A stretch of 64,000 bases of DNA from Tachypleus tridentatus (Eukaryota > Arthropoda > Merostomata > Xiphosura > Limulidae). Numbering within the stretch: the first letter of the stretch is position 1; each line of letters opens with the position of its first letter. The position numbers and the translations under genes were made by a program. Positions 3,008 through 61,830 of the stretch are shown here, piece after piece. The DNA lies in assembly GCF_004210375.1 (NCBI RefSeq), contig NW_027467782.1, positions 31,475,276 to 31,539,275 on the forward strand, given 5' to 3'. Below the pieces are notes generated by a model, which had not been told where the DNA came from, searched no databases, and saw only the letters and a list, made by a program, of their open reading frames with translations.

Positions 3008-4962
3008 TAAGGGGTCTTACCAGGAAAGGTTCCATATTTTTAGTTTACTTTCTGTAGATGGGTGGCCTTGTGGTGACCCCTTCCAGGATTAACCTGAGAA
3101 CCAGTTTTGGACGTTTTCAACAGGTGTTGTGGACATTGTGTCAGATGTTGGTGTTTGGGTATGATGTTCATGAAACCCTGGTGTAGCTGCAATGTCCTTG
3201 TTTAGCATTGAAACGTGTAGCCTCATAGGACTCCATTGTGGGCAGGGTCAATGGGTAGTAAATCTTCCTCTCACTCTTATGAATTCCGTAATCCTTGAAA
3301 ATCACCACAACCATCAGATCTTGTAGCACAATTTTTAATCCTTCATTCTTTATCTGATTAATCCTTAGGGCATATGTCTCCCATTTTCATTTAAAAGGGA
3401 TTAGAGTGGAATATTAGCTTTCCCAAGTCCATCAAGAAGCTATGTTTTGGGGACATCTTTGTGGAAATATCAACCCCAAAACACAGTGAACACCTCCTGA
3501 ATTTTAAGGCCATTGGGGATATACTCATTGATGTTACTCCCCCTTGCTACTGTGAATTCTTTACAAGGAGTAATTGTTGAGAGTAATTTGAAGAACATTC
3601 CTGAGTTGGAGATTCTTGCTTGTTTCCCCAACCAAGGAGTTTCTGTTGTGCAGCCATTTCTTCACTTGCAAGGACAGAATTATGCTGCCAACCAGTGTCG
3701 TAATTTTGACATTTAAATTGTTACATCTGTCTGCCTTGACATCTACCTGAATTGTAAGGTGTGGGTATATTCCTAACCCTCTCTGATTTTTTCAGTGCCA
3801 GCAGTTTTGATTTCAAAGACATCACATCGTAGTTCTTTGACATGCACTTTTTGTGGTGGCAAAGACCACAATGCATATGAGTACAAACTGGAACCACATT
3901 ACATTAAAAGTAGTGGTTGTCACCTCTTTTACTTTTGTCCTTGTCTTAGGTGGGTGGAGGAGAAAGAGGTACAGTGTTTTAAAACAGTTGACAACATTTA
4001 GCTTGAAACTCAGAAATTATTTTTCCCCAACTCCATTTCAGACATATGCTTCTGCACTATGTACCACTGCTGCAGTGCGAGTGCAGAAAGATTTATTTTC
4101 CAACAATGTGAAGAGTATTTTGCCCTCTTTGGATAAGTGAATTGGCAAGTCAGTGTCTACTCCTCACTCTGTTCCCACCATTCTTTCCAGTGATTGCCCA
4201 GGTCCAGGTTTTTCAGCCCTGCTTCTGGCAATATGCTATTAAACTTTAATCCTTACCACAGCATTCCCTTGAGGTTCTATCTTCCTCAGTGAGCTGTGCT
4301 CTTTTAGAATAGACAGTCTGCCACTCTTCTTTTTAGCCTTCATATTCAGGTGCACTGGTAGAATTGGGTGTGCCATTGGATGTCATTGCTGTTTCCACTG
4401 ATCAGCCCATACTGCAATAGCTTATTATCATTCCCACTTGTTTATCTTTCTTTGAGTCATCTGAGGAAGGCAGATATTTCCAATTGAATGTACTATCTCT
4501 TTAATAAATATCTTTCAAACCATTCTTCTATTCCTATTTATGCATATGGTTTAAAGAAGGTGTTTCTGTACAACCTGCCAAGGTTTTTCTCCAAATGATT
4601 GAGAGGGGGAAGTTGTCCTTACTAGGTTATGCATTGGTCACAGCTTTTTAACTCATTATTTTCTTTCATCTGCAACTGAGCCACCAATCATAAGTGATGG
4701 CACCATTTTCTATATGCCTTAAGTATGGGTTTACCTTTGACATTGGAAATGGTAACACTGTCCGACTTCCTCATGTCTTTAACTTTTTATGGGCCATTTG
4801 CCTTTTTTAATTCTATTTAGATTTTTTATACAAATTTTGGACATTGTTTTGTTTTAATTTAATTTATTTTTTGCCTTTTATAAGACATTCCTTTTTCCTA
4901 TTTTACTGCTTGTTTGGTGTAGATAGTCTAGTTGGTTTGTGCCAATAAACACCAACCAACTG
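3008..4962 (+). mobile_element. Internally deleted LINE (Jockey/I-like), same family as 35,612-41,185
   Basis: The 5' part matches the large LINE (GGTGTTGTGGACATTGTG, then the CATGAAACCCTGGTGT block). It is followed by the gag-like zinc-finger region at about 3,795-3,990, where Cys, Cys and His of a knuckle are visible (TCTFCGGKDH). The sequence then jumps at about 4,200-4,260 straight to the 3' end (TTCCTCAGTGAGCTGTGCTC corresponds to 39,700). Endonuclease and most of the RT are missing. The 3' end, CCAATAAACACCAACCAACT at about 4,943-4,962, matches the end of the large copy near 41,180. It is non-autonomous and non-functional. Confidence 0.8.
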
Positions 4963-8998: not shown

Positions 8999-9825
8999 AG
9001 GTCTTTTACAGTAAACACAGTCACATGATACCTTATATCTTTCACATTAAACACAGTCACACATAATACCTTATATCTTTCACAGTAAACACAGTCACAC
9101 ACGATACCTTGTATCTTTCACAGTAAGCACAGTCACACGTGATACCTTATATCTTTCACATTAAACACAGTCACACATAATACCTTATATCTTTCACAGT
9201 AAACACAGTTGCACATGATACCTTATATCTTTCACGGTGAACACAGTCACAACGTGATATCTTTCTTCTATATCTTTATCTCTTCTTCTATATCTTTCAC
9301 ACTAAACACAGTCTTGCATAATACCTTATATCTTTCACACTAAACACAGTCACACGTGATACCTTATATCTTTCACAGTAAACACAGTCACACATAATAC
9401 CTTATATCTTTCACAGTAAACACAGTCACACGCGATACCTTATATCTTTCACAGTAAACACAGTCACACGCGATACCTTATATCTTTCACAGTAAACACA
9501 GTCACACACGATACCTTATATCTTTCACAGTAAGCACAGTCACACGTGATACCTTATATCTTTCACATTAAACACAATCACACATAATACCTTATATCTT
9601 TCACAGTAAACACAGTTGCACATAATACCTTATATCTTTCACAGTGAACACAGTCACAACGTTATACTTTATATCTTTCTTCTATATCTTTCACACTAAA
9701 CACAGTCTTGCATAATACGTTATATCTTTCACATTAAACACAGTCACACATAATACCTTGTATCTTTCACAGTAAACACAGTTGCACATGATACCTTATA
9801 TCTTTCACAGTAAACACAGTCACAC
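8999..9825. repeat. Minisatellite, unit about 37 bp, roughly 20 copies
   Basis: Tandem copies of a unit containing ACCTTATATCTTTCACAG, TAAACACAGTCACACA and a variable CATAAT/CGTGAT/CGCGAT joint. Variant copies recur in the same order twice (compare about 9,090-9,330 with 9,500-9,760), which suggests duplication of blocks of several units. Confidence 0.9.
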
Positions 9826-21327: not shown

Positions 21328-22300
21328 TTGAGCATAAATGTTTTCTTTATTTATACTTCTGTGCATAAATGTCTTCTTTATTTATACTTCTGTACATAAA
21401 TGTCTTCTTTATTCATACTTCTGTGCATAAATGTCTTCTTTATTCATACTTCTGCACATAAATGTCTTCTTTATTCATACTTCTGCACATAAATGTCTTC
21501 TTTATTCATACTTCTGCACATAAATGTCTTCTTTATTCATACTTCTGCACATAAATGTCTTCTTTATTCATACTTCTGCACATAAATGTCTTCTTTATTC
21601 ATACTTCTGCACATAAATGTCTTCTTTATTCATACTTCTGCACATAAATGTCTTCTTTATTAACTTCTGTCATAAATGTCTTTATTCATACTTCTGCACA
21701 TAAATGTCTTCTTTATTCATACTTCTGTACATAAATGTCTTCTTTATTCATACTTCTGCACATAATGTCTTCTTTATTCATACTTTGTACATAAATGTCT
21801 TCTTTATTCATACTTCTGCACATAAATGTCTTCTTTATTCATACTTCTGTACATAAATTCTTTATTCATATACTTCTGCACATAAATGTCTTCTTTATTC
21901 ATACTTCTGCACATAAATGTCTTCTTTATTCATACTTCTGCACATAAATGTCTTCTTTATTCATATTGCACATAAATGTCTTCTTTATTCATACACATAA
22001 ATGTCTTCTTTATTCATACTTCTGCACATAAATGTCTTCTTTATTCATACTTCTGCACATAAATGTCTTCTTTATTCATACTTCTGCACATAAATGTCTT
22101 CTTTATTCATACTTCTGCACATAAATGTCTTCTTTATTCATACTTCTGCACATAAATGTCTTCGTAATTCATACTTCTGCACATAAATGTCTTCGTTATT
22201 CATACTTCTGCACATAAATGTCTTCGTTATTCATACTTCTGCACATAAATGTCTTCGTTATTCATACTTCTGTACATAAATGTCTTCTTTATTCATAGTT
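21328..22300. repeat. Minisatellite, unit 31 bp, about 30 copies
   Basis: Head-to-tail copies of a 31-bp unit containing CATAAATGTCTTCTTTATTC then ATACTTCTGCA. The central copies are nearly identical and the edges vary (TGTGCATA or TGTACATA at left, a TTCGTTATTC variant block at 22,160-22,265). The array starts about 90 bp after an ATR donor site but its unit matches intron, not exon. Confidence 0.95.
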
Positions 22301-23329
22301 CTATACTAGTTTAATTGTTCTTCTGATACAGAAGAGCATCGTAAGTCCTCATTTATCTAAAGAAACTGTCCCAAGAGACATATCAGTTTGATTTGTTAAA
22401 ACAGTGAGTGTTTATTTATCTCTTATTATGGAAAAAAAAATTAAAAAACTATTGTGCCTGCAACATGTATAATAAAATTGCATCATGATAAAATAAACTA
22501 TAATTTGTACAATTTACAGAAATGAATAAAACATTGTTTTACAAGTAGTAAGATTAAAGTTTGTCATTTTTATATTCAAACTTTTATTGATTAAAGTTTC
22601 AATTAATAATGTTTTATACAACACATTGAAAAACTCATTACTGCCACTTCACTGGAAATTCGTGGTTTCACTGAAAGTCTTTTCACTAGAGATGTAGTAC
22701 TGTAATATAAATAACAGTGAATCTTGTTTGTTTTTTTATTAGAAATTTGTTTAGAATAGCACTTGCTAATAATACCAGGAGGTTTAATGACCCTTCTTGT
22801 AGAGCTGGCTGTCTGGCAGCAAGTAGAGGAGGAATCCTTTACTTACTTTACCAATCGACTTCTGTTTATTTACTGTCCTGTTGACAAGCTCGTATTTTAG
22901 TTTTACTGCTGTATCATACAGTTTCCTTTCTTCTGAATGTTGTGAGGAATACTTTCTATGGTTGTCACTTTTGCCATATTATTGCACGTGGAGCCATATT
23001 CTTTCATTAGAATTGAGTGGATATGGCAGAGCTTGTTAACTGTCTCATTTACTTCTACCCCTATGTGGTATGGCATACAGTAACAGAGGATGGTCTTACT
23101 ATACAGTTTCTTTATTTCTGTCATCCATATGGGAAAATACTGAATTACTGATATGATACCTTTCCTATACTAACATAATTGCTTTCCTAGAGTTGCGTTA
23201 CACTCTCTTTGTATAAATTTTGTTTATCACTAGCCTTGAGACTTCTGTCCAGATTCATGTTTCCATGCAAATAAGTATGCAACAACCCTCCAACAGTAAG
23301 AGAGAACACACTTTTCTAGCACAGCTGAC
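22301..23329 (+). other. ATR intron, no gene recognised
   Basis: AT-rich non-coding DNA grading into the unclassified repeat that starts near 23,330. Confidence 0.5.
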
Positions 23330-26829: not shown

Positions 26830-27990
26830 TGTATGGTCAAAAGTTCTAAGACTTCACTTTTATTGCACAGAACAATGTACATACATCAGTATTATATTAT
26901 ATCCCGTTCAAAGTAATCCCTCCAGCTAATACACACTTGTCCTGATGTTCCTGCCATTTTCGAAAGCCTTCAACTTTTGTGTGACTAAGTTCTGCTTTCA
27001 CACAATTGTGGATGGTTGGAATGTCATCAAATCACCTTCCTTTCAACTTAATTTTGATTTTTGGGAACAGAACAAAATCACATGTGGCAAGATTGGGAGA
27101 TTACAGGGGGTGTGGTATCACAGGAATGTTTCTTTCTGCCAAACGTTCTTGAACAGATACAGCACTATGTGAAGGTGCATTGTCGTGACAGAGAAACCAA
27201 TAATCATTTTCCACAGCTCGCAGCAGTTTCTTCTAATTTCTTCCCTCAAGCAAATTAGGACCTTTTTATAAAATGCTTGGTTAACTGTCTGGCCATTAGG
27301 CACACATTCATGATGAACAATACCTTGAACATCAAAAAACACGATCAACATTGTCTTTACATTTGATCAAGACTGTCATGTTTTTTTGGAAGTGGTGATG
27401 ATGGAGATTTCCACTGGGGTGACTGAAATTTCGTTTCAGGGTCATAACTGTGTACCCATGACTCAATCACCAGTAATAATGATGTTGATGAAATTTGGAT
27501 CAATTTCTAGCCTTCTTTTCAGATCCTCACACACTTGTTGATGGTGAAACTTTTGGTCATCCATCAACAGCCTTGGAAAAAATTTTGCAGACACTTGACA
27601 CATGCAGAGTTTTTCAGCTAAAATCACATGACATAATGCAAAGGAAATGTTCAGTTTGTCAGCAATTTCATGAATAGTTAATCTTTGATGACTTTGACTA
27701 TTTTCTTTCATCTTAGCAACCATTTCATCAGTGGATGATGTCGGTGATTGCCCAGAATGGTCGTCATCTTTGACTGATTTCTGGACATCTTGGAAGTGTT
27801 TTATCCACTGATAAACAACAGTTTTACTTAAGCAATCATAATTAAAAGCAGTTCTTAACATTTCAATGATTTCTGTTCCTACTGTACCATTTTTCATACA
27901 AAATTTGATGCAAACATGTTGCTTTTATTTTCTGTCCATTTATATTTCAACAGAAGCAAGAGATGCTTCTGTCTTTGAACACGGGTATAA
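26830..27990 (-). mobile_element. mariner transposon, dead
   Basis: Minus-strand transposase remnant. The N-terminal helix-turn-helix part starts KFCMKNGTVGTEIIEMLRTA at about 27,910. It runs through LTIHEIADKLNIS and ends the first block at NFINIIITGDE, the first catalytic Asp region. A second block from about 27,351 begins MLIVFFDVQGIVHHECVP. Beyond 27,170 the frame is broken, and the segment that should hold the last catalytic Asp has no recognisable DAPAH-like motif. It is a canonical mariner layout with several stops and shifts. I could not fix the terminal inverted repeats. Confidence 0.85.
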
Positions 27991-32300: not shown

Positions 32301-32433
32301 CATCTTTAAGGCTAAGTTATTTGCCCTTCACCATCCACTTATCAAAGCCAGTTAAAATGGTGTATATGTGGCCTCTACAATATTTATTCTATTGCTTCAG
32401 CTGTGAATTTATAGGCCTATGCTTTACAGTAAG

Positions 32434-33000
32434 TGTCTGACTTGTTGGCATTTCAACAGTGAAGAAACAGCATAGAGTTCACTTTTTTTTAAATAACAGT
32501 AAATTAAAGCAAGTCAAACATATATTCAAATGTTCATTACACTGTTGGCTATTACAGTTGTATCCAAATCTTTAAATTGTTGTCTCCTTTTCTTAAAGCT
32601 CACACAATCTTGTTCATATATATAATTTTTACTTTGTTGTTACAATACAGTCTGTGATAATTTCACTTCAGAAATAACCAGAATACACTCTTTATGGCTA
32701 AACTCCCACTCAGACTGTCTAGATATATCTAAGTGACCAACTCAAAGTGCATTTTGGATGCATATTTGTTGTCTGAAAGAGGCCTCAGTTGCTTTACACA
32801 ATGGTTTTCATGGGATATTATGATGCAATAATTTGTGATAGTGTGTAAAGGTTGTTGGAAGGTTCTACTGACATGATTCAGCAATATACAACAAGTGCCA
32901 ATTCACGACAATTTAATCGAAGTATGATACATGCACAGCTACGTAACAAACCTGTGGTAAACCATCTCCACAAAAAATAAGTGAATTTAACACCAAAGAT
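32434..33000 (-). repeat. Right LTR of the gypsy element (5' LTR in element orientation)
   Basis: Starts TGTCTGACTTGTTGGC and shares ACAGTTGTATCC, GTTGTTACAATA and TTTATGGCTAAACTC with the left LTR. End approximate. Confidence 0.6.
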
Positions 33001-33435
33001 GTATTCAAACTGTTTAAATCTACCTGTTCATTGAGAGCATATGAAAATAAGTTCATACCATGAATGTGATGTTATGTAGAAGATCTTGTAACATAAATTT
33101 TCAATTAATTTTGATTTTGCCATTGGTTATAATCATACACAACATTATAGCAAAGTTCTTGAGAAAAACTTAGTTTCCTTCCTGAGTTTTGAAGTATAAT
33201 CATAGTATAAATAAACTTTTGTATCTCCATAAGAAAATAAATGCTTTAATTAACAAAGATGTATTTCCAACATTAAAGTGCAATATATATTTTTTTTATA
33301 TGTTAGTAATGTAAATGTATTTGGAAGAAGTGAAGAGGCATGTCACTTAAAGATTATTCATGTCTCTAGGAAATATTCAAAATACTTTTGGATTGATGTG
33401 GTAAATTTTGTTCCACCCTTGACTATCTCACATAG

Positions 33436-33527
33436 TGTAAAATTGTAAGAACTCAGCAGATGGGACCTTTATCAGCAGCCTCCATGGAAAATGGTGCATA
33501 CCAGCGTGGATACAGTCACGTTCTCAG
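33436..33527 (+). CDS. ATR: ATR exon (FAT domain), source of the downstream minisatellite
   Basis: Encodes CKIVRTQQMGPLSAASMENG then AYQRGYSHVLR, matching ATR LVRAEQIVPLSAASFERGSYQRGYEYIVR. Donor GTAATT. Phase 2 out. The start is uncertain: CACATAG gives an in-frame start, but about eight residues expected between SVKEK (26,086) and this point are missing. If the exon began at the better acceptor CATGTCTCTAG (about 33,369) the same frame would cross TGA and TAG. So either a micro-exon was missed or this exon is damaged too. Confidence 0.82.
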
Positions 33528-33765
33528 GTAATTATATTAAATCTCCATTTATATAAAAGTATAAATCACCATACATGTTATCATGTTCTTAAGTAATTTT
33601 TTATATCTACTTACAAGGGAATAGTTAATACCAGTGTGGATTCCACCATGATCTCAAGTGATTGCAATTGATTTTATTTCTATTTACAAGATAAATTGTA
33701 TGTACCAGGGTAGATATAATGTTCTCACGTAACTGTTTTTATCACATTATAAGAAAAGTGATGCA
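33528..33765 (+). repeat. Three diverged copies of the exon 3' end and donor site
   Basis: Following the exon, units of about 62-70 bp resemble the exon tail. They carry CATACATGTTATCATGTTCT|TAAGTAATT, then TACCAGTGTGGATTCC and ATCTCAAGTGATT, then TACCAGGGTAGATA and TTCTCACGTAACT. Each ends in a donor-like site in the same relative place as the real TTCTCAG|GTAATT. Confidence 0.75.
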
Positions 33766-33896
33766 TTTCATGCTTACAGAATTAAGAAATAAGAGTTTAA
33801 ATGAAAGTAACTAACAAAGGATTAACAATCATATTGACAAAAGTCTTAAAGTAATGGGGACAAAATAAACTGAAGAAGCAAAAATATAAAAGTTCT

Positions 33897-35611
33897 GAGG
33901 TTACATGGAGAATGGTACATATCATTGTGGATATCTTTGAAGTAATTGTTTTAATGTCTAATTACATGGAGAATGGTACATATCATTGTGGATCTTTGAA
34001 GTAATTGTTTTAATGTCTAATTACATGGAGAAGTACATTACTGGTACATATCATTGTGGATATCTTGAAGTAATTGTTTTAATGTCTAATTACATGGGAA
34101 TGGACAAAATTGTGGAATCTTTGAAGTAATTGTTTTAATGTCTAATTACATGGAGAATGGTACATATCATTGTGGATATCTTTGAAGTAATTGTTTTAAT
34201 GTCTAATTACATGGAGAATGGTACATATCATTGTGGATATCTTTGAAGTAATTGTTTTAATGTCTAATTACATGGAGAATGGTACATATCATTGTGGATA
34301 TCTTTGAAGTAATTGTCTAATTTGGAGAATTAATGTCTAATTACATGGAGAATGGTACATATCATTGTGGATATCTTTGAAGTAATTGTTTTAATCATGG
34401 AGAATTGTGGATATCATTGTGGATTTGAAGTAATTGTTTTAATGTCTAATTACATGGAGAATGGTACATATCATTGTGGATATCTTTGAAGTAATTGTTT
34501 TAATGTCTAATTACATGGAGAATGGTACATATCATTGTGGATATCTTTGAAGTAATTGTTTTAATGTCTAATTACATGGAGAATGGTACATATCATTGTG
34601 GATATCTTTGAAGTAATTGTTTTAATGTCTAATTACATGGAGAATGGTGGACTTTGAAGTAATTGTTTTAATGTCTAATTACATGGAGAATATCATTGTG
34701 GATATCTTTGAAGTAATTGTTTTAATGTCTAATTACATGGAGAATGGTACATATCATTGTGGAATGGTGTTTTAATGTGAAGTAATTGTTTTACATGGAT
34801 GGAGAATGGTACATATCATTGTGGATATCTTTGAAGTAATTGTTTTAATGTCTAATTACATGGAGAATGGTACATATCATTGTGGATATCTTTGAAGTAA
34901 TTGTTTTAATGTCTAATTACATGGAGAATGGTACATATCATTGTGGATATCTTTGAAGTAATTGTTTTAATGTCTAATTACATGGAGAATGGTACATATC
35001 ATTGTGGATATCTTTGAAGTAATTGTTTTAATGTCTAATTACATGGAGAATGGTACATATCATTGTGGATATCTTTGAAGTAATTGTTTTTGTCTAATTA
35101 CATGGAATGTCTAATTAGTAATGGTTTTAATGTCTAATTACATGGAGAATCATTGTGGATATCTTTGAAGTAATTGTTTTAATGTCTAAATACATGAATT
35201 TTAATGTTGAAGTAATTGTTTTAATTACATGGAGAAATGGTACATATCATTGTGGATATCTTTGAAGTAATTGTTTTAATGTCTAATTACATGGAGAATG
35301 GGATATTGTGGATATCTTTGAAGTAATTAATTGTTTTAATGTCTAATTACATGGGATATCTTTGAAGGTTTAATGTCTAATTACATGGAGAATGGTACAT
35401 ATCATTGTGGATATCTTTGAAGTAATTGTTTTAATGTCTAATTACATGGAGAATGGTACATATCATTGTGGATATCTTTGAAGTAATTGTTTTAATGTCT
35501 AATTACATGGAGAATGGCACATATCATTGTGGATATCTTGAAGTAATTGTTTTCATGTGTAGTTACATGATGAATAATATTTACCATTGTGGATTTCTTC
35601 AGGTAGTTGTT
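33897..35611 (+). repeat. Exon-derived minisatellite, unit 61 bp, about 28 copies
   Basis: The consensus unit runs TCTAATTACATGGAGAATGG, TACATATCATTGTGGATATC, TTTGAAGTAATTGTTTTAAT, G. Its ATGGAGAATGGTACATATCA block matches the ATR exon's ATGGAAAATGGTGCATACCA, and over 30 aligned bases I count 24 identities. GAAGTAATTGTTTTAAT corresponds to the exon/intron junction CAG|GTAATTATATTAAAT. The most 3' copy (35,566-35,611) has drifted separately and keeps CTTCAG|GTAGTT, a closer donor match. Several copies are truncated or rearranged (34,060-34,130; 34,310-34,440; 35,090-35,370). Confidence 0.9.
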
Positions 35612-35995
35612 CCCCTCATTCTGGATTCCTGTGATTGTTGAGGGGACCTCCCAGGGGAGGTTCTGTTCTTTTAGTTTACCCTTTTGGGATCTAAAGATCC
35701 ACCAACATGTGTGTTGTGCATGGTGACCCATGAAGAGGAGGAGAAGATCCTGATGGTTGAGGGGTCCAACCCTAACATACCACTGTGGCCTTGAATTCCT
35801 GTAGATGGGCAGCCTTGGGGTGGCTCCCCTTGGGTCAGTTGGCTGGTTCACTTGGCCTAGGGTTAACCAAGTACCAGTGTTGGATGTTCTCAGCAGGTGT
35901 TGTGGACATTGTACCTGATGCTGGTGTTTGGGTATAGTGCTCATGAAACCCTGGTGTTGCTGCAGTGTTCTTGTTTGGCATTGTAATGCATCCAC
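35612..35995 (-). other. Antisense open frame in the LINE 5' region
   Basis: A minus-strand frame of 167 codons (35,995 down to 35,492) starts in the LINE 5' region and runs out into the minisatellite. Its first 120 or so residues are matched by the plus-strand frame 58,604-58,939, which lies in an inverted copy of the same LINE (shared NTGTWLT, DPRGATPRLP, GNLKEQNLPWE or GKLKEQNLPWE). No domain is recognised. It may be chance openness of a GC-rich 5' UTR. Confidence 0.4.
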
Positions 35996-38900
35996 TCATA
36001 GGGCTTTATGGTGGGTGGGGACAGTGGACACCGAAAAATTCATTTTTTATTATGGACCATCCAAATAAAAAGTTAACCAAAATAGTGAAAAACAGTTTAT
36101 GAGTAAACAATCACATCTTGAAGATTCTGAACAGCAATCTTTAACATTTGTAACTTCTGTACCTTATTTTATTATACTACATTTTCTTTCAGACAAACCT
36201 TTAGGGCAAATGTCTCCCTTTTTCATTCAGAAGGGACCAGAAGGTCTCACTGGCTCTCCAAAGTTGGTCAGAAGGATTCGCTCTTGTGACATATTGGTAG
36301 AAATATCCACATCTCGAGCACAGTGAATTCCTCTTACATTCCAAGGCAATATACCTATTGAGGTTATGCCTCATTCAACTCTGAATTCGTAACAAGAAGT
36401 TATTGTTGATAGGGATTTGAAGAACATCCTGAGTCAGAGATTCCCACTGGTTTCTCCCACCACAAGGAGTTTCTTCAGTAAGGTGTATCTCCACTCCCAA
36501 AGATGGAATTTTGATGCCGATCAATGTCCTCATTTTAACATTTACATCACAGCATCCACCTGCTACCAACAAGGCAGGTTATTTTAACTGCAAGGTACGA
36601 CCATACATTCCAAACCCTCTCGGATAGTTCCAGTGTCAGCTATTTGATCACTCAGAGACATTATGTCTTGGTTCCTTGACATGTGCTCGTTGCAGTGGCA
36701 AGGATTATGGTGTCTATGAGTATGAAACAGACCCTTGTTGCATCACTTGCAATGGCTCTCACCCATCTTACTTTTATTCTTGCCCTAAATGGTTGGAAGG
36801 AATAAAAAGGTACAGTGTTTAAAGACGATTCAAAACATTACTTGCTTTGAGGCTTGAAAATTGCTATCTACCACTTTATGTTGGACTTATGCTGATGCAC
36901 TTCATTCCACTACTACAGTGGGAGTGCAGACAGATCTCTCTGTACCTCCAAAAGAATCATTCTCAAAACAAACAGAAAGTCTTCTGACATCCATGGTTAA
37001 AAAAGTTAATGAATCAATGTCAACACCCATCTTTGTCTCTAACATTAATTTCAGCAAACCCCAATATCTGCTTCCTTTGGTTTTGGTTACACTTTCTTCT
37101 CCTTTCCCAAGGTGCAAAATGATCATTTGTTTGCACCCTAAGTCACTGGAATCCTCTTCTAACAACAAAGACTTGCCCAATCAACCCAGGGTAGGATCCA
37201 TTGAGGTTGGTAAACCTCCCTCGAATAAAGACAATAAAGAAATAAAACATGGTCTGCACCCAATTTGCCTACACATAAATAAAAGTAGCCACCTTGATAC
37301 AATGGAACTGTTGAAGTTTACATTCTAATCTGGGTGACATCAAAACACTTATTTCTTCCTACCATCCTGTATGTCTTTCCTTGCAGGAAATCTTTCTGAA
37401 ACTTGCTGATACAATCACCTTTCAGCAGTTTTCTTTGTACAGAAATGACAGGCTGTGTGATGGACAAGTGCATGGAGGGGTAGCACTGTTGGTTGATCAG
37501 CATGTGCTTACCCTGTCTTTGTTACTCAACACACCCTTGGAGGCTGTAGCCATTTGTGTTTCTTTGTGTCGTACCATCACTGTTTGTTCTCTCTACCTGT
37601 TGCCTAGAGAGACCTATGATCAATCAGACCTTGATGCTCTCATTAAACAGTTGCCATCTCCATTTTTAATGCTGGGGGGCTTTAATGGAAATCGTCCCCT
37701 CTGAGGAAGTGCTGATATTGATGGGAGGGTCACTGTAGAGTGTATGCTCTCTGATCACAACTTTTCTCTCTTCAATAGTGGTTCTTATACTTATTTTCAT
37801 GCATCTAGTCAGTTCTTTACTGCTTTTGATCTCTCCATTTACTCCCCTTCACTATTCTCCCACTTTTCGTGGAGGGTTGACAATAACCCATGCAGCAGTG
37901 ATAATTTTTCTACAATTTTGAGAGAGACTGGCTGTGGTCAATGCCACCCAACCCATGTGCACCAATGGAAAAAGGATCAAGCAAACTTGCTCTCTTCTAC
38001 TGTTCTTACAGAACTTGATCCTGCCATCATCTGTATGCCATCAATAGACGACTGTGTGACAGCAATAACTGACTGTATTGTACAGAAAGCTGCTCAAAGT
38101 ATTCCTAAAGCCTTGACATGTTTTCACAATATCATCATCTGTGGTGGAATCTTGCCTGCCACATGGCACAGAAGACTCAAAAATGGACGTGGGATACTTT
38201 TCATAGGTATCCCACATTCTCGAATCGCATCGCTTTCCAACAGGCCCGTGCACATGCTTGGTGGGTAATATGTCAAAGCCAGAAGGACTCTTGGATTAAG
38301 TTCACAACCAACATATCTTTTATCACCAGTTGGGCAGAGTAATCACTTCTTTCCTTTGAGCTGATTGTCTCTGTGACTATAATCGTCCCCTTACACTGGC
38401 TCTTCATCAGTCTGTCAGTACATTCGGTTGGATCTGATGATGTGCACAATGAAATGCTGTGCTATCTCTCTCCTGCTTCTCTTGCTGTTTTTCTGATTGT
38501 TTTCAACCAGATCTGGCAGGAGAATGTTTTCCTGATGCCTGGCACTGAGCTATATTCCTATCTTTCTCTAAGCCTGGGAAGGATCCGAAGATTCCTTCAA
38601 ACTACCATCCAATTGCTTTGATGAAATGTCTCTGTAAGACCTTAGAGAGGATGGTTAAAGCTCGTCTTGTTTGGTTCCTTGAAGAAAATAACCTCCTCTC
38701 GCCCACCCAGTGTGTGTGTCCTAACGACAGTGCTCCACCATGGACCACTTGATTCGACCTGAAACATTAATCAGAGAAGCTTTTCTCAAATGACAAAATC
38801 TTGTATCAATATTCTTTGATATTGAGAAGGCTTGTGACACAACATGGAGGTATGGCATTTCATGAGACCTCCATATATATGGGTTACTTGGCCATTTACC

Positions 38901-41185
38901 CATGTTTATTAAAAAATTTTTAATGGACAGGTGATTCCAAGTTCATGTGGGTTCAACACATTCCCGTTTTTATCTACAGGAACTTGGAGTTCTTCAGGGC
39001 TGTGTTTTGAGTGACACATTTTTCAGTATAAAGATTAATGCCATCACTGAACTACTCCCTCTTACTGTTGCATACGGTCTCTATGTCAATGACTTTCACA
39101 TTTCATGTCAATCATCAAACATGCAGTATATTGAGCGACAGCTACAAACTGCCCTCAATTGTTTTCTGAAGTGGATCACTGCAAACAGTTTTAATTCTCT
39201 CTCTCTAAAACTGTTTGTATGCACTTTGCCACCAATGGGGTATTCACCCTGATCCTGAACTCAATATTGGTGAAGTTGTGCTAACTGTGGTCCCTGAAAC
39301 AAAGTTCTTTGGGCTTATCTTTGACTGTAAGCTGAGCTTCATAACACACATCAAGCAGCTACAGGTCAAATGTACAAGAGCACTGAACATCCTCCATGTC
39401 CACTCTTTCACATCTTGGGAAGTGGATCAATGTTCTTTGCTAAAGATATATCAGGCTATTACTTGATCAAAACTAGAGTATGGATCACTGGTCTATGGCT
39501 CTGCCAGCACCTTGGCCTTCAAGATCATCATCAGGGACTTCAGCTCTGCACCAGGGCTTTCAGCACTTCCCCTGTTCATAGCTTATACGTAGAATCTCAT
39601 GAACCTTCTTTGAACCTCTCTTTGCAACTGTCTTTACTGTATGCTTCAAAACTTCAGTCCTTACCATAACATTCCACCTGGGATTATGTTTTCCTTCCTC
39701 AGTGGGCCATGCTTTTGCAAAATAGACAATCAGCCATTGCTCCTTTTGGCCTTTGTATCCAAGTACAGTTGGATGAATTGGGTCTATCCTTGGATAACAT
39801 TTGCTGTATCCACTGGTCAGCTCATCCTACCATGGCTTATTACAGTCCCAAGATGTAACCTTTCTTTAAGTCATCTGAGAAAAGCAGACACTCCTGATTG
39901 GAAATACTGTATGTTATTTGCAGAACATCTTTCAAACCACCCTTCCATTCCTATTTATACAGATGGTTCAAAATCAGGTGACTCTGTGGGCTCAGCCATG
40001 GTTTGGTGGTTGTGCACAGAATCCTCTCTACAGTTTCTGTGTTCACTGCTGAACTGTATGTCATTTCTCTTGTCCTGTATCACACAGAAGCTAAGCAGTA
40101 CTCAAATTGTACTATTTATACTGACTCGCTTAGTTCTCTACTGGTCCTTGAATTGTTTCATCTTAGTTCTTACTGATATTCAAAATCGACTGGCCCATTT
40201 CTCTTTAACATCTACTTCTGTCCAGTGTTTCTAGATACTGGGCCACATTGGTATTTGCAGGAACGAGCTTGGTGACACTGCAGATAAATCTGTCTGCTCT
40301 GGCTCTATCACTGCTGTTTCTGTTCCATACGTGGACTATGGTCCTGTATTCAAGGCTCAGCTTCATGCCAGTTAGCAGTCGACTTGGAGTGAGCAACGTG
40401 AAAACAAGCTTTTCTAAATAAAACGTGCTATTGGACTTTGGCTATCTTGCTTTCTTAAGGACCAGAAATGGAAAGAGGAAATTGTCCTAACTAGACTACA
40501 CATTGGTCACAGTTTTTAATTCATCGTTTTCTTTTATCTGGGACTGATGCACCAATGTATTGTCTGTTACATTAAGCCACATTTTACTGTTTTGGTGTCA
40601 TTACGACTTAATTATGGCACCATTTTAAACATGTTTTGTCCCAAGGTTTATTTGTTAGATATTGTTATTGGCGATGGTGACATTGTCCACCTTTGAAATG
40701 TTTTTAGTTGTTTAAAGTCTATTAATCTTTTTAATGCTATTTAAGTTTGTTTTTTTTTACTTTATATATTAGACATTTTTTTGATGTGATTCACTTTTAA
40801 GAATCAAAGTACATCTAGTTCGATCTAAAATTAGAAAATGGCCATAACATCCAATAACTTGAAACCAGGAATGGAAAGGCCAACTTCAGGTGACTAATGC
40901 TACTTTTAACTACCTGTTGGTCATTCTGGCAAGTTATGATAATTATAATTATGCTATAAAAGTCCTTCACAACTTGTATTACTGTAGTTTTCTTCTTACT
41001 GCTGTAGACTAGATGTAAAAGTTGGATTTAATGCTATTTGTGTTTTAATTCAAAAATGTAACTTTGTTTTGTTTTATTTTAATTTCCTTTAATGAATTTT
41101 AATAATTTTACTTTACTTTTAACTTTTAACCAGATGTTTGGTGCACATAGCCTGGTTGCTAGAACACCAAATCAACCAGCCATCC
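35612..41185 (+). mobile_element. Jockey/I-like LINE, near full length, inactive
   Basis: Five parts are seen in order. (1) A 5' region up to about 36,060. (2) A gag-like ORF1 remnant with zinc knuckles at about 36,675-36,800 (CARCSGKDYGVYEYETDPC, CITCNGSHPSYFYSC). (3) An APE-type endonuclease at about 37,380-37,700 (YRNDRLCDGQVHGGVALLVD, SLYLLPRETYDQSDLDALI, FLMLGGFNG). (4) A reverse transcriptase at about 38,560-39,470, with QTTIQLL for the usual NYRPIAL, LGVLQGCVLSDTFF, and YVNDFHI where an active element has YxDD. (5) An RNase H-like segment near 39,950 (PIYTDGSKSGDSVGSAM). Numerous stops and shifts are present. The 3' end near 41,160-41,185 (AACACCAAATCAACCAGCC) matches the copy at 4,943. 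It inserted at the end of the exon-derived array. Confidence 0.88.
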
Positions 41186-41508
41186 ATGTAATTGTTTCCA
41201 TGTCTAGTTGCATGGAAATGTTACATTATATTTGGGGTATCATCATATCATCAGATATTATTCTTTTATCTTAGTAACAGTGAATTAGAAGTATGTTTTT
41301 TATTATGCTGCTTTCAGCTGTGTTTTCTTTTCATGCTAAAAAATGTTTAAATGGTTTAGAAAGATATTTAACATGATTCTCTATCTCAGTTGTGTTTTTC
41401 TTTTTTGTTTACTTTTTTTATATATATATACTAGTTTTTCTGTATTCGTCAGACACTGAAATGTAGTTTGTTAAGATTTTAGGGAGTATGTGTTTGTTTT
41501 TCTTCCAG
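41186..41508 (+). other. ATR intron, no gene recognised
   Basis: A T-rich stretch leading to the acceptor TTTTTCTTCCAG. Confidence 0.6.
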
Positions 41509-41647
41509 ACTACACATGTTGACAGATATGGAGAAAGCAGTCTAAGTTTTACAGGTCTCTGCCCTTCATTTCAAGGAAGCTACTCCTCAGTCAGTAGATT
41601 GAACTCCACTCTTAGAAGAGTGGAGAGGAAGAAGAAAATTGGTTCAA
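41509..41647 (+). pseudogene. ATR: ATR exon with two in-frame stop codons
   Basis: Strong acceptor TTTTTCTTCCAG, donor GTATGT, length 139 bp, phase 2 in and phase 0 out, exactly as its neighbours require. The frame reads RLHMLTDMEKAV, TAA at 41,546-41,548, VLQVSALHFKEATPQSVD, TGA at 41,600-41,602, TPLLEEWRGRRKLVQ. RLHML-(D/E)(L/M)E and the final W-(R)...Q match ATR RLHMLCELE and WVARLEMTQ. Because length and phase are preserved, the stops are substitutions, not frame errors. Both could be C-to-T changes (CAA to TAA, CGA to TGA), which is inference. Confidence 0.85.
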
Positions 41648-56349: not shown

Positions 56350-57880
56350 TAACCCTTTCTGTACAAATTGTGAAAATTGCCACATGTAGCGTAAAATGAT
56401 TTTACCCACCTACCAATAAAATAATTAATTTTTATACACTTTGTTTTTATGAGTGTATTACTTATATAATATGTTCTTGAAAAATATGCGAGTATATTAG
56501 TATATAACTTTATTGAATTGTAATACTTACGTAAATGGAAGAATCCTATTTATTATGCCATATTTCAAAGTGTCTGTACTGCATTGACCTGGTTTTCAGA
56601 GCATTCATTACAACACTTTCTTGTTTCCTTCCATTTTGGATATCACACTCTGCATCACTTTTTTGGATGCATATTTCAACCACCAGGCAAGGGTGGAATA
56701 GAAACTAAAGCATGGACAGTTTTTTTCCAGGCTATTGCTTGCAACCTGCATGAGGATTGCTAGCAACAAATTTCTTTTTAGTGGCAATTCCATCTGAATT
56801 ATGCATTTCCACCAGTTGCTGTGTGACCATTACGACATACCTCTTGAAAGTAAATATTTTTTTGCAGTATTTTTGTAAACATGAAAACTATTTAGCAGCA
56901 TACATGTCAGCAAGTGTAGGTCTAGCTTCTTAAACCATGCGTGGGGTTTATGACTTGGCTCATAAAGCTTCAGCAACTGTTCTGCTTTATCAACTGCTCC
57001 CATGTTTTCATTAAACTTTTCTATATAGCATAGTTTTTTTGTAAAATTGTCTGGTCTTCCCCCCAAAGTAAGTTTTATCCTTTTCAACAAAATTAGCTGA
57101 ATATTTTGTGGTTATCACATATACTGCTCTTCTGTCTTCCCATTTTACTATCAGAGCGTTGTCATTACGAACAAAAGCTGTGTCATGACTCTCCAGATGC
57201 TCATTAGCGAGCTCTTTTGGGATTTCTCTATTAGTGTGAATAGTAGTCATCCTCATTATATTTTGAGTTTTCAAAAATGTGCCAATCAAGTACTTGTATA
57301 CCAGTTGACTACAGTTACATGACACCCTTGTTCAAGAACAGATTCTAATAAATGGACAGTTATTTATTTTTTCACTAGATGTAAGCTTATTTACTCCTTC
57401 AACATCAAGTAAAGAATATTGATTGTTGGGTATTCTCTGTAGTACGCCCTTAAGCTGTATTCACACCAATTGTTTTCACTGTTGCACATGACAAATAATT
57501 TGATGCCTTGTACATTTAGTTTTTATGAATTGGCGAAAGCCTAGTCATCCTTTCCATAGAACTAATGCTTCATCAATTAAAATATGTTCTCCTACATCCA
57601 CATTTTTCATCAAAAATTTTCTGAAAAGCTCACCAATAGCATCCAAGCTTGTATAAGTTACATTTTTTGACATCATTTATTTTAGTAAAGCATAAAAATT
57701 TTACAAATGACATGCACGTCTCTACTTGTTATGGCAGCCCAGAAAAAAATGAATACCTGTTTCATAGGGCATTCTTGCCCAATACTGGTTCATATTGTTA
57801 TATTTACATATTCTAGTTTAAAATGAAGAGTAAAAATGTAAATATATCAATTTAAACGACATCTTTACACTGGATGCCAT
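56350..57880 (-). mobile_element. piggyBac transposon, decayed
   Basis: Minus-strand transposase pieces. The N-to-middle part lies at about 57,640-57,340 (ILIDEALVLWKG corresponds to the usual IDE-M-FRGR stretch, and there is a LQRIPNNQYSLLDVEGVNKL segment). Next come 57,325-57,011 (IGTFLKTQNI, IPKELANEHLES, IVKWEDRRAVYVITTKYSAN) and 57,090-56,830 (FNENMGAVDKAEQLLKLYEP, KPHAWFKKLDLHLLTCMLLN, SFHVYK). NMGxVDKAxQ-Y followed by WxKKLxxHLLxxxLxNxxxxYK is the classic end of the piggyBac catalytic domain. The ORF is split by frame changes. Termini were not fixed. Confidence 0.85.
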
Positions 57881-58950
57881 TTACAAACAGTGATAGTACG
57901 ACCCAAGGAAACACGGATGGCAACGCCCTTGAAGGGTGTGTAGAGTAGCATATGTCAGGCAACTATGATGTGACGTCTTTAAGTGACTGAACCTCTGACA
58001 CTGGAAACATCGGAGAGGGTTTGGAATGTACGGCCATTCCCTGCAATTTAGATAACCTGCCTTGATGGTGACAGGTGCAGGTGGTTATGTAAATGTCAGA
58101 ATGAGGATATTGTTCGGTATTGTAACTCCATCTTTGTGAGTGGAGATACGCCTCACTGCAGAAACTCGAGTAGAGAACCCAGCTAAAATCTCTGACTCGG
58201 GGATGTTCTTCAAATCCCTCTCAACAATAACTGTTGGATGTTTCCACTGATATGTCTCCAGATCAAAGCTTCTTTTCTGACTTTGGAGAGCTAGCAAGTC
58301 CCTACAGTCCCTTCTGAATAAAAAAAGGAGGACATTTGCCCTCAAGGTTTCTCTGAAAGAGAATGTAGGATAATAAAATGAGGTACAACTGGTGGTACAG
58401 ATGTTGAACATTGCTGATCAGAATCTTCAAGACGTGATTGTTTTCCTATTGACTGTTTTTTCACTATTTTATTTAAATGTTTGTTTGGAGGATCCATAAG
58501 AGAAAAGAAACATTTGGTGCCCTCTGATCCCACCCACCATAGAGCCCTATAAGGAGACGCACTACAATGTCAAGCAAAGACACTGCAGCAACGACAGGGT
58601 TTTGTGAGCACTACACCCAAACACCTGCATCAGACACAAAGTCCACAACACCTGTTAAGAACTTTCAACACTGGTACCTGGTTGACCATAGCCCAAGTGG
58701 ACCAGCTGATTGATCCAAGGGGGGCCACCCCAAGGCTGCCTGTCTATAGGAATTCAAGGTCAAAATGGTGTGTTATGGTTGGACCCCCAACCAACAGGAT
58801 CCTCTCCTCCCCTTCACGGTTCACCACACACGGTAAACACGTGGGTGGATGTTTAGATCCCAGAAGAGGTAATCTGAAAGAACAGAACCTTCCCTGGGAG
58901 TTCCCTTCACCACGTACAGGAGTCCACACTGAGGGGTGAGAATAAGAAGT
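57881..58950 (-). mobile_element. 5' fragment of the Jockey/I-like LINE, inverted
   Basis: Reverse complement of the first about 1 kb of the LINE at 35,612: 58,950 corresponds to the 5' end (GTGTGGACTCCTG), and 58,533-58,342 carries the start of ORF1 (minus strand MGSEGTKCFFSLMDPPNKHL). It stops near 57,881 before the zinc knuckles. Confidence 0.8.
58604..58939 (+). other. Open frame antisense to the LINE 5' region (second copy)
   Basis: 111 codons, starting MSTTPKHLHQTQSPQ and containing LLRTFNTGTWLTIAQ and DPRGATPRLPVYRNSR. Counterpart of the minus-strand frame 35,995-35,492. No domain recognised. Confidence 0.4.
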
Positions 58951-60070: not shown

Positions 60071-61830
60071 TTCCTGAACTATTTGGTTTTCAAACATATT
60101 GTTTGAGAAAAAATGTCTTGGTTGTCGAACATAAACTCGGTTCCCGAACAAAGTTGTTTAGCCTGAACCCTGAAATAGCCCGACTGATGAGCTGAACGAC
60201 CGTTCGACCATTTTCGCCCATGCCAAGTTTGCCCAAAACATTTTGCTCACACATGTCGCTCAGTCCACACCCCACTAAAATCTGTTGTGAACGTTTTTTT
60301 TCTAAATATTCTGATTAAATAAGTCATCATGAAGTCAAAGAAGGATAATGAAAGCGGCAAACCAAAAAGAAACGTTGTAAGAGCCACAATAAAGGAGAAA
60401 AAAGATCTTGTAACGAAGTACGAGAGTGGTGTTCGCTTGTCTGACCTTGCTGCACAGTTTGGAATGGCAAAGTCTGTGGTCTGCACCATGCTGAAAAATA
60501 AAGGAGGTGATGTTGCAAAAGGAGTGACAGTGCTTACGAAACAAAGATCACAAACAATGGAAGAGGTGTAAAAAGTGTTGTTGATTTGGGCAAACAAAAA
60601 ACAGTTAACTGGTGATAGCATTTTTGAGACCATCATTTGTGAGAAAGCAAAGCAGTTTTATGCTGACCTCCTGAAAAATACTTCTGGAACGAGTGCTGAT
60701 CCAAGTGATGTCTTTAAGGCTAGTAGGAGTGTTTTGAAAAATATTGGAAGAGAAGTGACATACATAGCTTCGTGAGACATGAGGAGGGTGCTCATTCTAA
60801 CAAAGATGCTGCTGATAAATTTGTCAGGGAATTTAAGGACTATGTAGAAGCTGAGGGTTTTATTCCCGAACAAGTGTTCAACTGTGATGAGACAGGCCTT
60901 TTTTGTAAGAAAATGCCAAAGACAACCTACGTCACCAAGGAGGAGAAGTCACTGCTAGGGCACAAGCCAATGAAGGACAGGCTAACTCTATTGTCATGTA
61001 ATAATGCAAGTGGGGTCTTAAAACTTAAGCCTTTGCTTGTTTACCATTCTGAGAACCCAGTTGTTTTTTTAAAAAAATAATTTTCTGAAAAGAAAATTAA
61101 ATGTCATGTGGAGGGCTAATAGTAAAGTATGACACAGAGTTAACCCTCAGAGAGTTCTGGAAAAATCACTTTAATAATCTCCATTGCTTGAGGATCATAG
61201 ACAAAGCCTGGAAGGAAGTGTCTTTGAGGACCATGAACTCAACCTGGAAGAAATTGCAACCAGATTCAGTATCAGATAGAGATTTTGAAGACTTTGAGTC
61301 TGAGCCTATTGTCGAGGATATTGTCTCACTAGGCAAGTGTATGGGCTTGAATGTGAGTGGTGATGATGTGTAGGAGTTGGTGGAAGACCACAACACTGAG
61401 CTCACCATGGAAGAACTCCAAGACCTTCAGAAGGAGCAGCAACAGAAGGCAACACTGAGGAAGTGTCTTCAGATGAGGAGGAGGGAAGGGAGGGTGTTCC
61501 TAGTTCATTAATCAAGGAAAGTGTGGAAAATAGGGAGAGTTGCAAAGTTTTGTGGAAAAATTTCACCCTGACAAAGCTGTAGCAAACTGCAGCATAAACC
61601 TTTTCAATGACAATGCCATGTCTTACTTCTGAAACATTTTAAAATGCAGGCAGAAACAAATCTTATTAGACAAGTTTTTAGTGAGAAATAGGTCCAGTGA
61701 GTCTCAATCGTGTTGTAGTGGTGCAAAGAGAGAGAAAAGAGAAAAAACCCCAGAAGGAAAGTCACCTGACGTTTTTTATGGAAGGTGACTCCCCTTCCAA
61801 TAATCTTATAACCTTTCATAAGATCACTTC
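60045..61830 (+). mobile_element. Tigger/pogo-type DNA transposon with internal deletion
   Basis: Starts near CAGTGGTATCTTCTTGAATG (60,045), a Tigger-like end. The transposase begins at 60,329 (MKSKKDNESGKPKRNVVRAT). The psq-type helix-turn-helix includes YESGVRLSDLAAQFGMAKS, followed by a CENPB-type DNA-binding part (60,560-60,775, WANKKQLTGDSIFETIICEK). The DDE domain opens at about 60,830 (FKDYVEAEGFIPEQVFNCDE, TGLFCKKMP, HKPMKDRLTLLSCNNASG). After about 61,105 it jumps to the C-terminal part (61,138, ELTLREFWKNHFNNLHCLRI), so the segment with the second and third catalytic acids is missing. There is a stop after MEEV (60,569-60,571). Confidence 0.88.

Follow-up and report, generated by a model that had tools for sequence, protein, structure and literature searches.

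An array beside an ATR exon and its likeness to the exon-intron junction

The window analysed here, a stretch of 64,000 nucleotides of the Tachypleus tridentatus genome (C19:31,475,276-31,539,275, in an assembly totalling 2.17 Gb), contains a copy of the ATR gene in which one exon is followed by a 61-bp minisatellite array, itself split by a long interspersed nuclear element (LINE). We put the chance that this array is a "mirage"-type minisatellite, born from the tail of that ATR exon together with its 5' splice site, at roughly four in five. The ATR exons of the window were first located using a human probe, and their concatenated translations matched ATR in the PDB (E 8.5e-87), the sole other match being MEC1 (6e-5). 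The exon downstream of the array contains a stop in the window and has an open frame in the copy on sequence C3 of the same assembly; the seed exon of the window belongs to a degenerate ATR copy.

Two spider ATR proteins retain the sequence of the seed exon (MEKGAYLRGYEYL) and its join to MHMLTD, and so the exon is the ancestral source and the array is derived. The opposite derivation, of the exon from the array, was considered and ruled out, since these two spiders keep the exon sequence and the array unit, which by eye translates as MENGTYHCGYL followed by a stop, is closed in frame.

Table 1. Features of the window around the array (positions within the window)
Feature	Position	Strand	Remarks
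ATR exon (CKIVRTQQMGPLSAASMENGAYQRGYSHVLR), seed of the array	33436..33527	+	ends as in predicted proteins, e.g. P0002
Authentic 5' splice site CAG/GTAATT (GT at 33,528)	33525..33533	+	U1 duplex -8.1 kcal/mol
Three diverged bridging copies of exon tail and donor (~33,557-33,610; 33,614-33,664; 33,695-33,739)	33557..33739	+	
Spacer without detectable exon homology	33760..33885	+	1,665 of 2,000 shuffles as good
61-bp minisatellite array	33901..35611	+	period 61 by Tandem Repeats Finder; in register up to the LINE at 35,612
Diverged 3' edge copy reaching the LINE, with the strongest array donor, CAG/GTAGTT (GT at 35,603)	35557..35611	+	
Non-LTR (long terminal repeat) retrotransposon (LINE) within the array	35612..41187	+	endonuclease and reverse-transcriptase matches
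Further diverged array unit past the LINE	41188..41250	+	score 48, best unit alignment in the window outside the array
Next ATR exon	41509..41647	+	LHMLTDMEKAV, then TAA in the window copy

The array block begins about 370 bp downstream of the seed exon and consists of 31 whole or partial units in the window, 11 of them perfect. Comparison of the unit with the exon tail gave an ungapped block of 30 bases with 24 matches (score 35), a likeness already proposed from the letters alone in an earlier sequence-only reading, and this score was reached by none of 5,000 dinucleotide shuffles, the best of which scored 34. A profile built from 15 units was then scanned over the window with positions 33,876-35,540 masked. 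Its first-ranked place was 33,483-33,539 (E 3.9e-5), which comprises the end of the exon, the donor and 12 intron bases, so that the match passes through the donor and the unit spans the exon-intron boundary of its host gene. Second and third were the 3' edge copy (35,564-35,611, E 8e-3) and the bridging copy at 33,614-33,664 (E 0.15), followed by a chance-like place at 27,754-27,802 (E 0.24); the unit past the LINE had an E value of 0.77 and the outermost bridging copy (33,695-33,739) one of only 12. In the reciprocal search with the exon tail, the top 25 places all fell inside the array. On these alignments the homology of the unit to the junction is firm in its exon part and likely in its intron part. 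Between exon and array, the bridging copies were compared with the exon tail against 2,000 shuffles each, and the first (33,557-33,610) scored 25, with 10 shuffles as good, the middle one (33,606-33,680) 28 with none as good, and the last (33,680-33,760) 25 with three as good.

The LINE was found to begin at CCCCTCA within a unit and is flanked by a likely target-site duplication (GTAGTTGTT / GTAATTGTT, 8 of 9 bases by eye). The splitting of the array by this element is an addition to the sequence-only reading, in which the last array copy was said to keep the best donor: the copy at the 3' edge does hold the strongest donor of the array, but it is not the last, as the LINE and then a further unit at 41,188 come after it. 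That the array might be a part of the LINE was ruled out, since the array continues on the far side of the LINE and the LINE starts as its relative at 58,936 does. The 5' part of the LINE is also present on the other strand at 58,936-58,307.

ATR copies and their arrays across the genome

The seed exon has 27 matches in the genome (22 on C19, 4 on C4 and 1 on C8), and a protein search of the genome for a diverged ATR exon without an array returned 26 places, all among these 27. Exon 49,822 has 26 genome matches, exon 20,735 has 22 and the UME domain 18. When neighbours were sought on the same strand and within set distance ranges, 17 of the 27 exon copies had the upstream exon and 13 the downstream exon; only 6 had both, which indicates that many copies are partial segments. 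Segments of ATR are thus found multiplied on C19, C4, C8, C3, C9 and C10, mostly on C19, and the protein models call these copies atr-like. Among 21 aligned exon copies, subfamily A (the window and seven others) lacks 24 nt at its start relative to subfamily B (nine copies), which has the full start and a Y to C change, and subfamily C (four copies) lacks another 12 nt. Five additional exon copies have the 12-nt loss and L029 has a variant of it; the 24-nt and 12-nt deletions preserve the frame, and the extra loss in L029 is apparently out of frame. Two predicted proteins share ATR residues with 98% identity, P0022 (zinc finger CCCH domain-containing protein 15-like) over 29% of the query and P0021 (LOC143242566) over 45%, and stray ATR exons may have been fused into these other gene models. 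A literature search at title and abstract level found no description of ATR being amplified in horseshoe crabs.

FATC, the terminal domain in kinases of this class, has five genome matches, of which the one on C3 was read. Its best match is ATR (E 7e-5, compared with 0.056 for TOR1), and it lies some 51 kb downstream of the exon 49,822 copy on C3, on the same strand, so that C3 carries the only ATR-like C-terminus identified, with one of the five FATC matches read. At C3 (C3:67,880,000-67,899,999, L030/L031), the array copy closest to the ATR C-terminus is preceded directly by a gap of 500 N, before which other sequence is found; the seed exon and the 5' part of the gene were not seen there, and the C3 match to UME lies on the opposite strand. 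For these reasons the main ATR gene may be misassembled.

The array was present at all 28 loci read (the 27 exon copies and C3) and the LINE adjoins it at an identical junction in 22 of them, which makes it most likely that array and LINE were already in the ATR intron before the region was copied. At four loci (L011, L016, L020 and L022) the array continues to the end of the stretch read. Exact 54-bp cores of the unit occur 1,196 times in the genome, compared with none for a reversed-pattern control, and among the roughly 100 matches listed all were beside exon copies on C4, C8 and C19; the units of the C3 array vary, and this array is absent from the exact-core places listed. The shortest array measures 353 bp (L035) and the longest reach at least 7.5 kb (L011, L016 and L020, with L022 about equal), while substitution divergence in the 2-kb flanks of 21 copies is 0.1-2.3%. 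Arrays of 5,215 and 787 bp have flanks that are 0.15% apart, and arrays of 6,254 and 1,719 bp have flanks 0.29% apart, and thus the array is unstable in length, as judged between paralogues of one assembly and not between alleles. With the array at 28 loci and such similar flanks, these near-identical replicates within one genome allow the birth, homogenisation and expansion of a minisatellite to be compared.

Another explanation is that the array acted as a fragile site which aided the breakage and amplification of ATR, offering homology through which copies could exchange as well as breakpoints for duplications. The copy on C8 (L013, C8:158,066,200-158,076,199) passes without a gap, inside the array after about 17 units, into unrelated sequence that contains a tRNA-like short interspersed nuclear element. 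At L023 (C19:14,140,300-14,150,299) a gap of 500 N stands inside the array and the sequence beyond it has no match to the window, representing either a second array break or a misjoin. The gap beside the C3 array and the small number of exon copies with both tested neighbours point the same way, but only one of these breaks is free of gaps, and gaps may be assembly artefacts. We therefore consider such a role unlikely, though it is the best placed of the alternatives. Slightly more doubtful is a combined history in which the junction-seeded minisatellite became a fragile site and helped to break ATR, whose roughly 27 degenerate pieces were scattered chiefly across a single chromosome; if true, DNA of a repair gene would have bred the repeat that shredded its own gene.

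Splice donors of the array and comparison with known minisatellites

Among the 531 GT sites in 33,401-41,600, the donor of the seed exon shares fourth place for U1 pairing, and its GT is altered only in L015 and is intact in the other 26 copies. The array has 29 donor-like sites (GTAATT, GTAGTT or GTGATT), 27 of them being GAAGTAATT; the sequence-only reading had counted approximately 28 after the real donor. The 27 internal donors read GAA/GTAATT, having lost the G before GT, with a U1 duplex of -3.3 kcal/mol, and the edge donor (-7.8) is the sole CAG/GT among the strong array sites. No array donor equals that of the exon in U1 pairing, and the LINE contains several sites as strong as the exon donor or stronger.

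Predicted protein models of T. tridentatus were searched among proteins of about 200-600 residues. Of those returned, 13 contain the exon, and in all 13 it is joined from its own donor to LHMLTD, skipping the array; 10 of the 13 terminate at the stop. In the 15 models read, which are predictions only, neither a peptide encoded by the array nor a new intron or exon arising from it was seen. It is most likely that the array is passive intron DNA which is spliced out and has no function; a role in splicing is unsupported, as is the idea that the many array donors matter, given their pairing (-3.3 against -8.1) and the donors used in the models.

The alternative that the array is a bank of 5' splice sites, at which bound U1 small nuclear ribonucleoprotein tunes splicing or shields a long intron from early poly-adenylation, should be considered in this light. 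It has in its favour the number of GTAATT-like sites in the window array, an edge copy near to the exon donor in strength, and the retention of the edge donor string at every one of the 22 loci that show the LINE junction. There is also a human precedent, the minisatellite of IFI6 (6-16, G1P3), which reportedly yields several splice donors (Turri 1995); like the ATR array, it is repeated in tandem at the end of an exon and contains 5' splice sites. A passage of PMC4526556 describes the repeat units of IFI6 as serving as splice donors; in the ATR array, by contrast, no such use is seen and the internal donors are without the G before GT. The weakness of those donors relative to the exon and LINE sites argues against a bank, as does the skipping of the array in every exon-holding model. 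Donor cores number from about 4 to 120 per locus, so the dose is not kept among the copies, and retention of the edge donor means little given a divergence of 0.1-2.3%. A bank of splice sites is thus improbable.

The reading of the array as a minisatellite born from an exon-intron junction has its nearest parallel in amphioxus, where tandem repeats across exon-intron boundaries have been named "mirages" and, according to passages of two papers, are unstable in length while splicing is reportedly intact (PMC3087553, PMC3902484). The genes named in those passages are Adh3, the globins BflGb6 and BflGb9, troponin C and PGBD5, the mirage of BflGb6 having 3 or 6 units of 150-160 bp. The opinion in the sequence-only reading that a minisatellite seeded by such a junction is unusual must be set aside to this extent, as the kind is already known from lancelets. 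In the literature searched we found no mirage minisatellite described beyond lancelets, and the ATR array suggests that they also arise in arthropods. It differs from the lancelet examples in its arthropod host, its 61-bp unit and its up to about 120 donor cores, and also in being a block set about 370 bp past its exon, split by a LINE and present at 28 loci read. Mirages have AG/GT signals in many units, and the ATR array keeps GT at 27 sites but a strong CAG/GT only in the edge copy; splicing is reportedly undisturbed by mirages, and for the ATR array 13 of 13 exon-holding models, which are predictions, join the exon to the next true one. Mirages also have a homogenised centre from which boundary units are excluded, and here identity to the unit, computed in 15 of 22 complete arrays, is 0.815 in the last two units, 0.961 in the middle and 0.997 in the first two. 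Intron gain through tandem duplication across AG/GT, which is discussed in part of PMC3087553, similarly starts by tandem duplication of an exon-intron boundary, and differs in that no new intron or exon has resulted in the models read.

Origin of the array and other elements of the window

We suggest that in an ancestor of T. tridentatus some 65-70 bp, comprising the last 45 bases of the exon, the 5' splice site and some 20-25 intron bases, would have been duplicated in tandem inside the intron, and that the earliest copies then drifted apart. Loss of roughly 7 bp, together with the G that precedes GT, would have turned one copy into the 61-bp unit, which may have expanded and been homogenised via slippage or unequal exchange, before the LINE inserted into the last units. 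Copying of the ATR region to about 27 places, most of them on C19, would have come later, with the array expanding or contracting independently at each. In this scheme the homology of unit and exon, one firm bridging copy, the divergence at the 3' edge, the LINE common to the loci, the occurrence of the array at all 28 loci read and its variation in length are seen in the sequence itself; how large the earliest steps were and in what order they came, the mechanism of exchange and the lack of function are what we infer. The beginnings of minisatellites are rarely visible, and here source, an intermediate and product are found side by side.

Several observations weigh against this origin. The best unrelated place in the window (26) outscores two of the three bridging copies (25 and 25) and leaves the middle one (28) as the only firm copy; the outer two are weak and have position and donor register as their basis, and of the two or three diverged bridging copies that had been claimed one can thus be relied upon. 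The 126-bp spacer is unlike the exon, and the array does not grade into the bridging copies. The donor-and-intron part of the unit fits the junction modestly, 105 of 5,000 shuffles and 180 of 5,000 random window places being as good, and so the claim that the unit shares both the donor and the start of the intron is upheld by the profile match through the donor and only modestly by the intron part alone. Divergence is confined to the 3' edge in the 15 complete arrays, the 5' edge being undiverged. The history first proposed, of duplication of the exon tail, divergence near the exon and homogenised expansion, is supported in its birth from the exon tail and 5' splice site, in the diverged copies close to the exon and in the more uniform block further downstream. 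Two loci, L013 and L023 past its gap, leave the array without reaching the LINE. Array lengths are those of an assembly, in which arrays may be collapsed or misjoined, and the comparison is within that one assembly. The unit cores sought genome-wide were exact ones, with about 100 places listed that end inside C19, and the protein models, all predicted, include isoforms that come from the same genes.

Despite these points a junction-seeded origin remains the reading that we favour. It is very improbable that the array is instead a foreign satellite, or a piece of some mobile element, which landed beside the exon and resembles it by chance. In favour of this are the LINE that abuts the array, the spacer without homology and the best of 5,000 shuffles, which came within one point of the observed score. 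Against it, the LINE starts within a unit and is followed by more of the array, and the profile test, the middle bridging copy and the reciprocal best matches concur. The array is also at 28 of 28 ATR loci read and, among the genome matches listed, always beside exon copies. Four more arrays in the window (1,627; 9,002; 21,333; 28,545) were compared with the rest of it, and none had a top-ranked place on a located ATR exon.

Elsewhere in the window, an Rfam scan gave no match at gathering scores. The ATR copy of the window holds two further minisatellites, at 9,002-9,825 (38 bp) and 21,333-22,302 (31 bp), the latter some 100 bp downstream of an exon. The 72-bp repeat unit of 28,545-28,745 matches within 32,881-33,200, 4 kb downstream (score 43), the segment 28,806-29,163 resembles approximately 32,407-32,730 at 68%, and the unit of the array at 1,627 matches its own flank (score 38). 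Other LINE copies or transposase remnants are at 3,085-4,688, 57,947-58,936, 57,011-57,331, 60,727-61,080 and 27,463-27,924, the last of which is without a Pfam match and is presumably mariner-like. The transposase remnants matched DDE_Tnp_1_7 and, below its cut-off, DDE_1.
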